Source of the DNA: Syntrophomonadaceae bacterium
GTDB taxonomy: Bacteria; Bacillota_D; Dethiobacteria; DTU022
DNA length: 17,659 nucleotides
Direction of reading: 5' to 3'
NCBI GenBank assembly: GCA_003551865.1
Contig: PUNU01000219.1
Coordinates: forward strand, 1-17,659
In this document: piece by piece, positions 4,671 to 11,541 of the stretch
Numbering within the stretch: the first letter of the stretch is position 1
How the letters are laid out: the number at the start of each line of letters is the position of its first letter
Translations under genes and position numbers: made by a program
Notes under the pieces: model-generated
The model's input: only the letters and a program-made list of their open reading frames with translations
What the model was told of the DNA's origin: nothing
Databases searched by the model: none

Positions 4671-4751
4671 TATATTGCAAACATTATAAGTTTGGAATAC
4701 GGGATTCAGTAGTTATCCTGAACTCCTTCTGTTCCAACGGGGATGGTTCAA

Positions 4752-5972
4752 ATGGCTGTTAAAGAAAAAAAACTGGGCGAACTGAAAAAGCTGATAAAAA
4801 ACTATTATCCCGACCTGGAAGACTGGAATATAGTCGAAAAGGCCTATAATTATTCGGTGCAGGCTCACTCCGGCCAGCTGAGGGAATCGGGGGAGTCATA
4901 TATAATCCACCCGCTCGGGGTAGCGATGATCCTGGCCGAGCTGGAGCTTGACCTGGTGACCATTATTGCCGGCCTGCTTCATGACGTGGTGGAAGATACT
5001 GATGTTAACCTGGATGATCTCCGGAGGGAGTTTGGTGAAGAGGTTGTCTCCCTGGTAGACGGTGTAACCAAACTGAGCCGCCTTGATTTTACCTCTAAAG
5101 AAGAACAGCAGGCGGAAACCCTGCGTAAAATGTTTATCGCCATGGCCCAGGATATCCGGGTCGTTTTGATTAAACTGGCCGATCGGACCCATAACCTGCG
5201 AACCCTTCGTTATTTAAATACCTATAAGCAAAAAGAAATTGCCCGTGAAACCATCGAGATATATGCACCGCTGGCCCACCGCCTGGGAATTTATAAGATC
5301 AAATGGGAACTTGAAGACCTCGCCTTCCGCTATCTGAACCCCGGGGACTATTTTCAACTGGTTGAAAAGCTGGCCAAGAAAAGAAAAGAGCGCGAGCATT
5401 TTATCAACCGTATTATAGATGTAATCCAGGAACAGCTCTCAGAGGCTTCGATCCAGGCCGAAATTCAGGGTCGTCCCAAGCACCTTTTCAGTATTTACAA
5501 TAAAATGAAGAACCAGGACAAGGATCTTAACGAAATTTATGACCTCACTGCGGTGCGAATTATTGTCGATACGGTAAAAGATTGCTATCACACTCTCGGT
5601 ATAGTTCATACCATCTGGAAGCCGATACCGGGACGGTTTAAAGATTTTATTGCCATGCCTAAGCCAAATATGTACCAGTCTTTGCACACTACGGTTTTTG
5701 CCGCTGAAAACGAACTGGTTGAGATCCAGATCAGGACCTGGGACATGCACCGGACCGCCGAATACGGTATTGCCGCCCACTGGCGTTACAAAGAGAGGAC
5801 AAGCGATTCCTATGAAGTGGACGAAAAACTGACCTGGCTGCGGCAGCTGCTGGAGTGGCAGCACGATTACCGCGATGCCCGGGACTTTATTAAAGATCTA
5901 AAGGGAGACCTATTTACAGACGAGGTTTTTGTTTTCACCCCTAAAGGCGATGTGATCGATCTGCCTTCCTGA
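4752..5972 (+). CDS. rel: Bifunctional (p)ppGpp synthetase/hydrolase Rel, catalytic N-terminal half, ends at in-frame TGA
   Basis: Rel makes and destroys the alarmone (p)ppGpp, the signal of the stringent response. This half holds the HD hydrolase domain (HDVVEDT, numbered His80-Thr86 from the ATG at 4743) and the synthetase domain (RFKD at 298-301, then PKPNMYQSLHT, EIQIRT at 327-332 and AAHWRYKE). RFKD is the RXKD version of the motif that separates bifunctional Rel/SpoT from monofunctional RelA (EXDD), so both activities are expected. The frame stops at TGA 5970-5972, right after GDVIDLPS, where the family continues with a small residue (usually Gly) into the TGS domain. The following bases in the same frame encode that TGS domain. 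I prefer ATG 4752 because GGGGATGG lies at a proper distance upstream; ATG 4743 has no room for a Shine-Dalgarno site. The truncated product resembles engineered N-terminal Rel fragments that lack ribosome control. Confidence 0.9.
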   Translation: MAVKEKKLGELKKLIKNYYPDLEDWNIVEKAYNYSVQAHSGQLRESGESYIIHPLGVAMILAELELDLVTIIAGLLHDVVEDTDVNLDDLRREFGEEVVSLVDGVTKLSRLDFTSKEEQQAETLRKMFIAMAQDIRVVLIKLADRTHNLRTLRYLNTYKQKEIARETIEIYAPLAHRLGIYKIKWELEDLAFRYLNPGDYFQLVEKLAKKRKEREHFINRIIDVIQEQLSEASIQAEIQGRPKHLFSIYNKMKNQDKDLNEIYDLTAVRIIVDTVKDCYHTLGIVHTIWKPIPGRFKDFIAMPKPNMYQSLHTTVFAAENELVEIQIRTWDMHRTAEYGIAAHWRYKERTSDSYEVDEKLTWLRQLLEWQHDYRDARDFIKDLKGDLFTDEVFVFTPKGDVIDLPS

Positions 5973-6947
5973 TCTGTTACCCTGGATTTTGCCTATAAAA
6001 TTCACACAGATGTTGGAAATCAGTGCACAGGTGCGAAGGTTAACGGCCGCCTGGTACCGCTCGACTACCAGTTAAAAACCGGGGACATGGTCGAAGTTGT
6101 CACTTCAAAACAAGGATCGCCGAGCCGTGACTGGTTGAAATTGGTAAAAACCTCCCATGCCAAAAACAAGATCCGGAACTGGTTTAAAAAAGAACGGCGG
6201 GAAGAGAACATTGAAAAAGGAAAAGAAATGCTCGAAAAAGAGATCCGAAGAGCCAATATTGTACGTCACCTGGTTCTGAAAAGTGAGCTGCTGGAAGAGG
6301 CCGGGCGCTCTTTCAACCTCCTATCGGCAGACGACCTTTATGCGGCTGTCGGTTACGGGGGAGTTTCGGTTAATCAGGTTCTCAACCGCCTGCGTGAAGA
6401 GTATAAGCGAAGGTACGGCGACAGGGAACAGGAGCAGGAACAGCCCTTGCCTGAGGTTAAACCCACGAAGCACCTGAAACAAACCTCCCCGGGCATATCT
6501 GTTCAAGGTGTCGACAACCTGCTGGTGCGTATAGCCCGCTGTTGCAACCCCGTGCCTGGAGATAATGTTATCGGGTTTATTACCAGGGGCCGGGGTGTTT
6601 CCGTGCACCGCCGCGACTGCCCCAACCTTGCGAACCAGGCCAACAGCAACCGCTTCCTGGAGGTCTCGTGGGAAGAAGAGGCCAATGTTTCTTACCCGGT
6701 TGAAATCGAAATTAATGCCGTTGATCGCAAAAATTTGCTTGCCGATATTATGAATGTGGTAAACGAGAGCAAGGTTGATATTACCGCCGTTACCGCCAGG
6801 GCCGACAAGGACCAGATTGCCACCATCTATATGACCATGGTGGTCAGGGACCAGGTTCATCTCGATCAGATCATGGCCAAAGTGAAAAAGGTAAAAGATG
6901 TTTATGCGGTCCGCCGCTATGTCTACGGTTCAAACAGCCAGGCCTAG
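5973..6947 (+). pseudogene. rel: Regulatory C-terminal half of Rel (TGS, helical, zinc-finger-like and ACT domains), downstream of in-frame TGA
   Basis: The frame of rel continues past the TGA without any frameshift: the first codons after the stop encode SVTLDFAYKIHTDVGN, the start of a TGS domain, followed by KVNGRLVPLDYQLKTGD, a helical region, the conserved Cys-rich segment VRIARCCNPVPGD...GVSVHRRDCPN, and a C-terminal ACT domain (from about VEIEINAVDRKNLL to the end). These parts sense the stalled ribosome and control the catalytic half. Joined across the TGA, the whole protein would be about 730 residues, the normal Rel length. The only early ATG in this half is at 6087 (inside the TGS domain), with no convincing Shine-Dalgarno site, so separate translation is unlikely to give a whole domain set. 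It is listed as a disrupted part of rel; readthrough or sequence error remains possible. Confidence 0.75.
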
Positions 6948-6960
6948 GGCCTCTTTTTTT
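6940..6960 (+). terminator. Weak candidate terminator overlapping the rel stop codon
   Basis: AGGCC (6940-6944) can pair with GGCCT (6948-6952) around the TAG stop, followed by C and seven T bases. The stem is only 5 bp with a 3-base loop, so it may act only as a pause or together with the stronger hairpin 20 bases further on. Confidence 0.3.
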
Positions 6961-6979
6961 CAGCGTGTCCCGGTTCAAT

Positions 6980-7007
6980 ACCGGCGCTTTATGGAAGCCG
7001 GTTTTTT
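6980..7007 (+). terminator. Rho-independent terminator after rel
   Basis: ACCGGC (6980-6985) pairs perfectly with GCCGGT (6997-7002), with an 11-base loop, and the stem runs directly into a run of six T bases (7002-7007). Position 30 bases after the rel stop fits the end of this transcript. Confidence 0.65.
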
Positions 7008-7210
7008 AATGATCGCTCACAGAGAATTGTTACGTTGCTTTTGCGGGTTTCGCCGGGCAGCTTCGACATTTGGCCTTATGTTTGCTGGTTTCAGACCGGT
7101 TCGTAATTTGCATGCCACTGCAGGCGGCTTGTTTTGTGTTCGCTCGCAGCCTGCAGGAGCCGCCCGCATTAACTTTGATTACTTGACCGGGTTGGGTAGA
7201 ATAAATAATC
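7008..7210. other. Non-coding stretch with two overlapping, mutually exclusive hairpins
   Basis: No credible gene is visible here: the open frames lack start signals and family motifs. Two hairpins compete for the same bases. CTGCAGGC (7118-7125) can pair with GCCTGCAG (7149-7156), or GGCGGCT (7123-7129) can pair with AGCCGCC (7158-7164). Both sets are perfect matches. Whether this is transcribed is unknown; it lies after the rel terminator and over 300 bases upstream of dtd. Confidence 0.35.
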
Positions 7211-7368
7211 GTAACTACTCGTATGTCTATTGTCCTTGTTGAATGAAAAGCTGTGCCATGGGGACGGTTCGAGCGTTCCTACAAATCCGGGTTCTGGCCT
7301 CTGACTTCTATTATGGAAAACGATGGAACCGTCCCCTATGGCATAGCGGGTTAGGCCTGAGTAGTTAC
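7211..7368. mobile_element. REP/MITE-like inverted-repeat element, 158 bp, no transposase
   Basis: The element is bounded by a perfect 10-bp inverted repeat, GTAACTACTC (7211-7220) and GAGTAGTTAC (7359-7368). Inside lies a second, longer pair of arms: 7250-7270 (contains GTGCCAT and GGGGACGGTTC) and 7325-7347 (contains GAACCGTCCCC and ATGGCAT), which match apart from one G/A difference and one extra A. The GGGGACGGTTC / GAACCGTCCCC core is, from memory, a recurring extragenic palindrome in many Clostridia and other bacteria, where it is often linked to REP-associated Y1 transposases. No protein-coding frame of transposase type is present, so it would be a non-autonomous copy. It lies between rel and dtd and interrupts no gene. 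Confidence 0.6.
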
Positions 7369-7378
7369 AAATAATCAT

Positions 7379-7384
7379 TATAAT
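7379..7384 (+). promoter_or_regulatory. Possible -10 element upstream of dtd
   Basis: TATAAT at 7379-7384 is a perfect -10 consensus lying 11 bases after the inverted-repeat element and about 100 bases before dtd. No acceptable -35 hexamer is found at 16-18 bases upstream (that position falls in the element's right end), so the call is weak. Confidence 0.25.
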
Positions 7385-7482
7385 GACTTTCCTTGATCAC
7401 AGCCAGTAGTGGACTGTCAACCGGCAAAACTGCAGAATTTAACCCCGGCCGGTGGAGACAATTAAATCGCAGGAGGAGAAAA

Positions 7483-8172: not shown

Positions 8173-11100
8173 ATGAAATACAAAGCCCCGCGCGGAACAC
8201 GCGACATATTACCGGACGAAGCAGAAAAATGGCGGCAGCTGGAAACCAGGTTTGCCGAGTTTTGCCATCTCTACGGATTTGGTGAAATACGTACCCCCAT
8301 GTTTGAACAAACCGAACTTTTTGCCCGCAGCGTCGGCGAAGACAGTGATATAGTTTCCAAGGAGATGTATTCCTTCAAGGATCGCAGTGGGCGCGATTTG
8401 ACCCTGCGCCCCGAGCTTACTGCTGCAGTGGCCCGCGCTTACCTGGAGCATAACCTGGGTGAAAAGCCCCAGCCAATCAAGCTTTATTACAGTGGGCCGA
8501 TGTTTCGCTATGACAGGCCCCAGGCCGGCCGCTACCGGCAGTTCAACCAGTTTGGAGTGGAGATATTCGGAGCGGCTCATGCCGCCGCAGATGTAGAAGT
8601 AATTGCTTTTTGCTATAATTTTTTAAGAGCTCTGCAGATTGAAGATCTTTCCATCGAACTGAACAGCGTCGGCTGCCCGATTTGCCGTCCCCGCTACCGG
8701 GAGACGCTGGTGCCTTTTCTGGAAGAAAGGGAAAAAAGGCTCTGTGAGGACTGCCGCAGGCGTTACAAGACCAATCCACTGCGGGTGCTGGACTGCAAAG
8801 AAGAGCAATGCAGACGACAGGTAGCAGATGCTCCGCGCCTGATCGATCACCTGTGCCCGGATTGTGAAGAGAACTTTGCCACACTCAGGGAGCTGCTGGA
8901 AAAACTGCAGATCCCGTTTACCCTTAATCCCAACCTGGTCCGCGGTCTTGATTACTATACCCGCACGGCATTTGAGATAACGGCCGGCCAAGCCGGGGTC
9001 CAGTCCTCGCTCTGCGGGGGCGGCCGCTACGATTACCTGGTTGAACATATTGGCGGCCCTCCCACTTCCGCTACGGGGGTTGCTTTCGGCGTAGAGAGGA
9101 TTATTTTGTCCATGGATTGGAGCAAAATCATTCCTGAATCGGATATTTCCCTGTTTGTTGCCGCCGCCGGAGACGGCCTGGAAGGGGAAGCCCTGGCCCT
9201 GGCAAATGAGCTGCGCTTGAAAGGTTTTGCCGCCGAAGTTGACCTGCTTGGCAGAAGCCTCAAGGCCCAAATGAAGTATGCCGGAAGAAAAGGTTATCAA
9301 AAGGTGGCCATCATAGGTGAAGAGGAGATTGAACAAAACCGGGTTCTTTTGCGCGATATGGACAGCGGTGAGCAGAAAAACTTGCCCCGTAAAGATTTTA
9401 CCGCCCTGCTTACCCAAGACCACGGTCGAACAGGAATTTCCACCAAAAAAGACCGGGGGAGCGAAGTGATCCTTCCTGCACCTGTGGAGGATGCCGATCT
9501 AAAAACACATTACTGCGGAGCTCTCAGCCTGGATCATGTAAGCCAAAAGGTCAGGTTGACCGGTTGGGTCGGCCGGCGGCGGGATCACGGAGGCCTGATC
9601 TTCATTGACTTAAGAGATCGCAGCGGGGTGATCCAGCTGGTTTTTGATCAGCAGAGAGGTGATGAGCTGTTCAATCTGGCGGAAAGCCTGCGCAGTGAAT
9701 ACGTTGTTGCCGTAGAAGGGGAAATTTTAAAAAGAGCGGAAGATAACATTAACCCGACCTTGCCAACCGGCGAAATTGAAGTTCATATTTCTGGAATGGA
9801 AATATTAAACAGTTCAAAAACTCCGCCTTTCTATATTGAAGACGGGATCAACGTCGACGAGAACCTGCGCCTGCGCTATCGCTACCTTGATCTGCGACGC
9901 CCTGAGATGCTGAAGCGCCTGCAGCTGCGCCATCGTGCCGTCAAGTTGATCCGTGATTACTTGGACGATTATGATTTTTTGGAAATCGAGACTCCGATGC
10001 TCACCCGGAGCACCCCGGAAGGAGCGCGCGATTTTCTGGTGCCCAGCCGCATTCATGCCGGTTCATTTTATGCCCTGCCCCAGTCTCCCCAGCTTTTTAA
10101 ACAGCTCCTGATGGTCAGCGGGATTGAGCGCTATTTTCAGATTGTGCGCTGCTTCCGCGATGAAGATTTAAGGGCCGACCGGCAGCCGGAGTTTACCCAG
10201 GTCGATATTGAAACCTCCTTTTTCGGGTTGGAAAACCTTTTTGCCCTCACTGAAGGAATGGTGGCCAAGCTCTGGAAAGAGATTCACGGTATAGAAGCAA
10301 AAAGGCCTTTTCCCCGGATGCCCTACACCGAGGCAATGAACCGCTTTGGGTCGGACAAGCCCGATTTGCGCTACGAGATGGAACTGGTTGCTTTGGATGA
10401 TCTGGCAGACGAAAGCGAATTTAAGGTTTTCCAGTCAGCCCTGGAAGAGGGAGGCTCGGTAAAGGGCCTGCGGGTTCCCGGCGGTGGGAACATGAGCCGG
10501 AAGGATTTGGATGATCTGACCCTTTTTGCCCGCCAGCTTGGTGCCAGGGGTCTGGCCTGGGTTTATGTCGAAGCCGACGGCTGGCGCTCGCCGATCAGTA
10601 AATTTTTCAGTCCCTCCCTGGCCGAAAAAATCAACATGAAAATGGAAGCCGAGCCCGGTGATGTCCTGCTGTTTGTTGCCGACCGCTGGGAAGTAACCTG
10701 CGAGGTCCTGGGCGGTCTGCGCCGCCGCCTGGCCCCGGAAAGAAAATCGGCGGAACCCCACTTCCTATGGGTGGTCGACTTTCCGCTTTTCCACTTTAAC
10801 GAAGAAGAACAGCGCTATGATTCCGATCACCATCCCTTTACCGCACCTCACCGGGGAGATATGCCGCTTTTGGACAGCGATCCCCTTGCCATCCGAGCCC
10901 GGGCGTACGACCTGGTTCTCGACGGTGTAGAAATTGGCGGAGGCAGTGTTCGTATTCATGACAGTGAGATCCAGGCCAGAATCTTTCAACTGCTGGGATT
11001 GTCCGAAGAAGAAGGCAGGGAAAAGTTTGGCTTCCTGTTGGAAGCCCTTTCCTTCGGGGCTCCTCCGCACGAAGGCATTGCCCTGGGCCTTGATCGGATA

Positions 11101-11268
11101 ATCGCTTTATTAAGCGGTGACGAGTCAATCCGACAGGTCATTCCTTTTCCAAAAACAGCGGCCGCCAGCTGCCTGATGACAGCCGCACCCGCTGCGGTAT
11201 CGGAACAACAGCTTGAAGAGTTAAAATTAAAAATTCAGCCCCCGGATAAGGACAACAAAGAAAAATAA
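8173..11268 (+). CDS. hisS-aspS: Histidyl-tRNA synthetase fused in frame to aspartyl-tRNA synthetase
   Basis: One frame of 1031 codons encodes two complete class II enzymes. Residues 1 to about 414 are HisRS: APRGTRD at the N-terminus, motif 2 (FRYDRPQAGRYRQF, 111-124), the His-specific GLDYYTRT (258-265), motif 3 (GVAFGVERI, 302-310), the usual Cys-rich insertion and an anticodon-binding domain ending near LRDMDSGEQ. A polar linker follows (about 415-442). From about 443 it is AspRS: KTHYCG, an OB anticodon domain with RRRDHGG, the QSPQ loop (637-640), motif 2 FRDEDLR (661-667), a GAD domain, and motif 3 GLDRI (972-976). A good Shine-Dalgarno site (GAGAGGAG) precedes ATG 8173. In related bacteria hisS and aspS are adjacent separate genes. 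A GTG at codon 432 (9466), preceded by GGGGGAG, could start AspRS alone, and it overlaps an out-of-frame TGA as GTGA. A true fusion or a one-base indel joining coupled genes are both possible. Confidence 0.9.
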   Translation: MKYKAPRGTRDILPDEAEKWRQLETRFAEFCHLYGFGEIRTPMFEQTELFARSVGEDSDIVSKEMYSFKDRSGRDLTLRPELTAAVARAYLEHNLGEKPQPIKLYYSGPMFRYDRPQAGRYRQFNQFGVEIFGAAHAAADVEVIAFCYNFLRALQIEDLSIELNSVGCPICRPRYRETLVPFLEEREKRLCEDCRRRYKTNPLRVLDCKEEQCRRQVADAPRLIDHLCPDCEENFATLRELLEKLQIPFTLNPNLVRGLDYYTRTAFEITAGQAGVQSSLCGGGRYDYLVEHIGGPPTSATGVAFGVERIILSMDWSKIIPESDISLFVAAAGDGLEGEALALANELRLKGFAAEVDLLGRSLKAQMKYAGRKGYQKVAIIGEEEIEQNRVLLRDMDSGEQKNLPRKDFTALLTQDHGRTGISTKKDRGSEVILPAPVEDADLKTHYCGALSLDHVSQKVRLTGWVGRRRDHGGLIFIDLRDRSGVIQLVFDQQRGDELFNLAESLRSEYVVAVEGEILKRAEDNINPTLPTGEIEVHISGMEILNSSKTPPFYIEDGINVDENLRLRYRYLDLRRPEMLKRLQLRHRAVKLIRDYLDDYDFLEIETPMLTRSTPEGARDFLVPSRIHAGSFYALPQSPQLFKQLLMVSGIERYFQIVRCFRDEDLRADRQPEFTQVDIETSFFGLENLFALTEGMVAKLWKEIHGIEAKRPFPRMPYTEAMNRFGSDKPDLRYEMELVALDDLADESEFKVFQSALEEGGSVKGLRVPGGGNMSRKDLDDLTLFARQLGARGLAWVYVEADGWRSPISKFFSPSLAEKINMKMEAEPGDVLLFVADRWEVTCEVLGGLRRRLAPERKSAEPHFLWVVDFPLFHFNEEEQRYDSDHHPFTAPHRGDMPLLDSDPLAIRARAYDLVLDGVEIGGGSVRIHDSEIQARIFQLLGLSEEEGREKFGFLLEALSFGAPPHEGIALGLDRIIALLSGDESIRQVIPFPKTAAASCLMTAAPAAVSEQQLEELKLKIQPPDKDNKEK

Positions 11269-11330: not shown

Positions 11331-11361
11331 TTCTACAGGAAATGTTAGACAATTGTAATTG

Positions 11362-11541
11362 AACCCTGCTGTGTTCGTGAAACCCGAAAAAGTTTTGAGC
11401 CAACACTTAAACAACGGGAGCCCGGGCTTCAGCTGCGGCGCAGATGCCTTTTAAAAAAGGACCTGTAAAACAGCTGAGAGGGCACCCACCTTCGGGAGGA
11501 ACCGTTCAAAACTACGGGCCCACGGCACGGCGGGGTTTTTT
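11362..11541 (+). ncRNA. ssrS: 6S RNA (RNA polymerase regulator)
   Basis: 6S RNA mimics an open promoter and binds the housekeeping RNA polymerase holoenzyme. The fold can be read by eye. The closing stem pairs 11364-11373 with 11526-11535 (10 bp, two G-U), continues with CGTG 11376-11379 / CACG 11521-11524 and CCCG 11383-11386 / CGGG 11515-11518, then GTTTTGAGC 11392-11400 with GTTCAAAAC 11504-11512. A large central bubble follows, then an upper arm with TTCAGCTG 11428-11435 / CAGCTGAG 11471-11478 and the tip CCTTTT 11447-11452 / AAAAGG 11455-11460. The RNA ends in GGGG plus six T bases, which also gives termination. The 5' GTGTTCGTG...CCCG...TGAGCC pattern resembles known 6S RNAs, and the position after aspS matches the 6S-1 locus of Bacillus subtilis as I recall it. 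No protein-coding signal overlaps. Confirmation needs a covariance-model search. Confidence 0.8.

Follow-up and report, generated by a model that had tools for sequence, protein, structure and literature searches.

The rel gene of a contig assigned to Syntrophomonadaceae is interrupted by a single in-frame TGA, and this stop is private to the contig within everything that we examined. We give about an even chance to the reading that a single substitution created this nonsense allele very recently and that it is private to one strain or population of a clostridium resembling Syntrophomonadaceae. An error in the consensus sequence is nearly as likely. One of these two readings most likely accounts for the stop, rather than a new regulatory device. 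The contig was analyzed over its full length of 17,659 bases (referred to as the window).

The interrupted rel frame and its neighborhood

The Rel frame occupies positions 4752-6947 of the window (+ strand), and codon 407 of its 731 codons is TGA (5970-5972, +). The part upstream of this stop (4752-5969, +) encodes 406 residues that include, based on Pfam, an HD hydrolase domain (residues 31-180), a RelA_SpoT synthetase domain (residues 240-349) and the first 15 residues of a TGS domain; an alternative upstream ATG at 4743 would extend this first piece to 409 residues. Thus, the catalytic domains of a long RSH Rel are present (PF13328, 176.6 bits; PF04607, 148.6 bits). The upstream piece also carries HDVVEDT at residue 77 and RFKD at residue 295, which we take to be motifs of the two catalytic domains of Rel. 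The part downstream of the stop (5973-6947, +) has 324 codons, ends in TAG and encodes the remaining TGS, AH/RIS and ACT domains (PF02824, PF19296 and PF13291). The TIGR00691 model was matched on both sides of the TGA (model positions 1-377 upstream and 380-687 downstream), and the lesion is a clean substitution with no indel. These results bear out the original prediction that rel is full-length save for one TGA with the frame kept: 406 residues are followed by the TGA and then by 324 more Rel residues. In a long RSH Rel the TGS, AH/RIS and ACT domains lie in one open frame, whereas here the TGA intervenes.

The stop had been placed precisely at the border of the catalytic and regulatory halves of the protein. 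This placement is off by 15 residues, as the TGS domain spans residues 392-451 of the read-through Rel by Pfam and is itself cut at position 16 of its 60. A stop that cuts a domain would fit a random nonsense change, unlike a tidy modular release. Global reassignment of TGA was rightly ruled out at the outset, as recJ, dtd, rsmH and ftsL all terminate in TGA; with four genes ending in this codon and no other internal TGA, the window does not follow a code in which UGA specifies Gly or Trp. No further internal stops were found in 14 coding segments (5,298 codons, rel counted as two), an absence that is partly by construction since the segments were chosen as open frames.

If the base is real, translation would stop at codon 407 and yield a 406-residue fragment composed of hydrolase, synthetase and a TGS stub. 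This fragment would be without AH/RIS, ACT and most of TGS, including His418, which by alignment offset appears to be the counterpart of the tRNA-reading H420 of B. subtilis Rel. With these regions gone, the fragment should not respond to starved ribosomes, judging from other Rel proteins.

Several other features of the window were recorded. The gap between rel and dtd (6948-7482) is 535 bases, compared to about 5-110 bases in four relatives (L002, L003, L004 and L006). An 18-nt inverted repeat of the GGGGACGGTTC type (7260-7277 and 7319-7336) lies within this gap, nested in arms at 7197-7220 and 7359-7382; we presume that it resembles a REP- or MITE-like element. Farther downstream, hisS and aspS are fused in one open frame of 1031 codons (8173-11268), with TIGR00442 matched on residues 4-405 and TIGR00459 on residues 444-1020. 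A single stop-free HisRS-AspRS frame was detected in 27 of 43 family genomes; among the rest, G016 and G021 show separate genes or stops, and in several the locus runs off a contig end. Stops between hisS and aspS were found in the farther relatives L010, L013, L015, L016 and L028-L030. The fusion is conserved in the family and is a side finding of more interest than the rel stop. In titles and abstract openings, the literature search returned no title on a bacterial HisRS-AspRS fusion and 0 occurrences of the term 'HisRS-AspRS' in two of the papers found; 'hisS-aspS' occurs twice in a Lactobacillus gene-cluster paper (PMC5313534). A 6S RNA (RF00013, 103.8 bits) is located at 11360-11540, between aspS and mgtE. 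The window has one mgtE, while a relative carries a tandem pair of mgtE-like genes (L021, 11949-14633).

Relatives and constraint on the downstream half

Three samples of relatives were examined for the stop. A contig scan with the downstream half of rel confirmed at least 515 relatives, of which the best 80 loci were kept; the TGA site is a Gly codon in all 80 (GGT 34, GGA 18, GGC 17 and GGG 11). The read-through Rel was also scored against 7,994 candidate proteins, with the best 120 listed; the top 74 (P0002-P0075, 724-749 aa) were aligned. These best 74 are all full-length, with Gly at the site in 73 and Asp in one, such that Gly is indeed usual at this position as had been proposed. Finally, 71 genomes were surveyed from the order to which the genome of L001 belongs, 66 of which had a rel match (58 complete and 8 partial frames) and 5 of which had none. 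All 58 complete frames run uninterrupted to the natural C-terminus. Seven of these frames (G004, G013, G020, G023, G024, G029 and G048) had been flagged as candidate parallel truncations, and every flagged stop was the natural C-terminus; similarly, the partial frames of the other eight genomes, considered as candidate split rel genes, stop at contig edges.

By this approach, the same TGA, which the original prediction had suggested seeking in close relatives, was found in none of the 80 best loci, the 58 complete frames of the order or the 74 nearest listed proteins. A truncated RSH protein under selection would share its truncation among more than one lineage, and no such sharing was detected in the 80 kept loci and 58 complete frames. 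Among the matches listed, the closest full-length protein is 84% identical to the read-through Rel.

The age of the stop was approached through the constraint on the downstream half. The divergence of the downstream relative to the upstream half of rel (C/N ratio) had a median of 2.02 for pairs that include the window (n = 74) compared to 2.21 for other pairs (n = 2,601), and the window ranked 63 of 75, a ratio that is not raised. At columns that are otherwise invariant among the 74 relatives, the window has one private change downstream (I to V) and none upstream. There is also no added stop before the TAG; by all three measures, the downstream half is not that of a decayed pseudogene. With no relaxed constraint among the 75 compared proteins, the earlier statements that the downstream half is still conserved and that any loss is recent both hold.

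Ratios of dN calculated from DNA did not contradict this: the window gave 1.29-2.52 in comparison with 14 loci, and the 91 pairs that these loci form gave 1.43-3.27. The window's values were biased low by selection of the 14 loci for low downstream divergence. The claim of constraint therefore rests on the 74-protein comparison, which is free of this selection. Synonymous sites were saturated (pS 0.60-0.81), rendering branch dN/dS unusable. As a rough estimate with branch dS assumed to be 0.3-0.7, a downstream half unconstrained for the whole branch should have gathered 59 to 137 private changes, and the unconstrained share of the terminal branch would be at most about 8% to 3.5%. Thus, either the stop is very young, or it is absent from the organism, or translation still reaches the downstream half.

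Origin of the stop

A private allele is supported by the absence of the stop from the relatives (80/80 best loci, 58/58 order frames and the 74 nearest listed proteins), by a contig that otherwise looks fair, by a downstream half with no sign of relaxation, and by the precedent of Leptospira biflexa (PMC3153485, from the portion of that report available). On this reading the downstream half would have had too little time for decay. The same reading is weakened by the occurrence of the stop in one contig and one cluster member, with no near-identical strain (nearest at 84%). It is further weakened by the likely cost of the change: rel was the only RelA_SpoT gene found in five of six relatives' genomes searched (two matches in G005), as far as these genomes are complete, so losing its control should be costly. 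If the organism of the window resembles these relatives, small synthetases would probably not buffer the effect.

Additional RSH-like sequences were observed in the relatives. The second RelA_SpoT domain of G005 (G005:C198:8387-8794, 70.4 bits) lies inside an 885-aa open frame. One 366-aa HD+SYNTH protein (P0144), for which the longest contig is 179,725 bases, the same figure as for the full-length P0029, may represent a naturally short Rel that occurs beside the full-length one in a relative. Distant matches to the HD half alone (G010:C238:1975-2355 and G018:C161:5298-5666, at 36% and 39%) are possibly small alarmone hydrolases.

The closest competitor of the private allele, for which we estimate somewhat less than an even chance, is an error in the consensus, introduced by sequencing or assembly, or a mixture of strains at low coverage, in which case the organism's Rel would be ordinary and full-length. 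In agreement with an error, the truncated Rel forms a one-member protein cluster from this single contig, no second copy of the truncated allele was found in the protein clusters, and rel is complete in all 58 full frames of the order. The lack of relaxed constraint downstream is equally expected under an error. By contrast, the change is a clean substitution with no indel, and nine other segments (the 3' part of secD, secF, lapA, recJ, dtd, hisS-aspS, mgtE, mraZ and rsmH) align unbroken to a relative along almost all of their length, which argues for a contig that is not generally poor. Of these, dtd (frame from 7483) matches relatives at 72-79% over its length. No match among the relatives' loci compared was obtained for ftsL, the gene of a penicillin-binding protein or the partial gene that comes last.

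It appears improbable that the truncation is maintained as an adaptive form, in which an HD+SYNTH fragment would act independently of the ribosome. Both catalytic domains retain their presumed motifs, and a fragment of this reach can fold, as structures of similar reach have been deposited (1vj7, 393 residues; 5xnx, 394; 8acu, 373). However, the stop is absent from every relative examined, the cut leaves a partial TGS, and B. subtilis Rel 1-373 is described, in the sections of the report available, as weak in net synthesis and not efficient in hydrolysis (PMC7058999). A stop kept for long would also let the downstream half decay, and decay was not seen. Deliberate release of a catalytic fragment, one of the options raised originally, is disfavored by the same private occurrence and by the cut inside TGS.

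Recoding of the UGA by selenocysteine insertion, a suppressor tRNA or regulated readthrough, which would provide some full-length Rel, is very unlikely. Selenocysteine insertion was put to the test based on the tRNA-Sec of relatives: matches were detected in all six searched and exceeded the Rfam cut-off in five (G001-G005), compared to 14 of 14 controls with a match and 5 of 14 over the cut-off. The relatives' clade probably makes selenoproteins. In addition, the downstream half is under constraint, one of four folds had a z of -2.06, and a hairpin after the TGA (5983-6004, +), with a loop G 18 nt downstream of the stop, passed a loose bSECIS-like test. Against recoding, the other three folds had z values of -1.31, -0.74 and -0.64, and 13 of 30 relatives with a Gly codon at the site also passed the loose test, as did 1431 of 4232 window codons (34%). 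The hairpin lies within the conserved LDFAYKIH codons and was rejected as a bSECIS, being a by-product of the coding sequence. No bSECIS specific to the UGA copy was found; the site in homologues is Gly (80/80 best loci; 73 Gly and 1 Asp of the 74 listed proteins) and never Cys or Sec, and the window is without a tRNA gene. Readthrough has no specific support, and the regulated form of it suggested earlier is not supported, as the stop is absent from all relatives examined and no recoding element specific to this copy was found. There is a similarly slight chance that the UGA is kept on purpose, such that the cell would make mostly a ribosome-blind HD+SYNTH enzyme and, by minor readthrough (Sec or near-cognate decoding), some full-length Rel. 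Stringent signalling would then depend on UGA decoding; such maintained recoding would matter if true, but the comparative evidence opposes it.

Least probable of all is a split Rel with a separate regulatory protein made by internal initiation: an in-frame ATG at 6087 opens a 286-aa frame and the protein database carries a 270-aa prediction from the window (P0240), but TGS would be divided in two and, by eye, no well-spaced Shine-Dalgarno sequence precedes 6087 or 6135, compared to clear ones at dtd and hisS-aspS (the start of rel itself is also not strong).

Comparison with known Rel proteins

If the private allele is real, it provides another example of one substitution freeing a strain's (p)ppGpp from control by the ribosome, in a lineage whose sampled relatives mostly have a single RelA_SpoT gene (5/6). 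If it is an error, it serves as a warning on the interpretation of lone stops in metagenome contigs.

The read-through frame has the full HD-SYNTH-TGS-AH-RIS-ACT order of long RSH Rel proteins, with 84% identity to the nearest listed relative, and differs from them by one in-frame TGA in TGS. Laboratory NTD-only versions of Rel from B. subtilis and S. aureus likewise retain the catalytic half minus the ribosome-sensing half; these proteins are engineered, whereas the stop of the window falls 15 residues into TGS. Based on the parts of the two reports available, net synthesis by B. subtilis Rel 1-373 is weak and its hydrolysis not efficient (PMC7058999), while S. aureus Rel without the CTD is natively a net hydrolase, the CTD being essential for synthesis under stringent conditions (PMC6053245). 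Because NTD-only Rel differs between the two species, the direction of any shift in basal (p)ppGpp is unpredictable; by analogy, both results would fit a lost starvation response.

Natural truncations are also described in the available portions of two reports. A frameshift in rel of a clinical S. aureus (N697*, with a stop at 701) similarly truncates Rel at its C-terminus (PMC10597345); it drops 29 ACT residues, whereas the rel of the window loses AH, RIS and ACT entirely and TGS for the most part. The rel of Leptospira biflexa Paris carries a CAA to TAA nonsense change and is annotated as a pseudogene (PMC3153485). Like the TGA of the window, this is a one-base premature stop in a long Rel, in another codon and another lineage. 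Taken together, the rel of the window is a new and unconfirmed instance of a kind already known, the nonsense-mutated long Rel.
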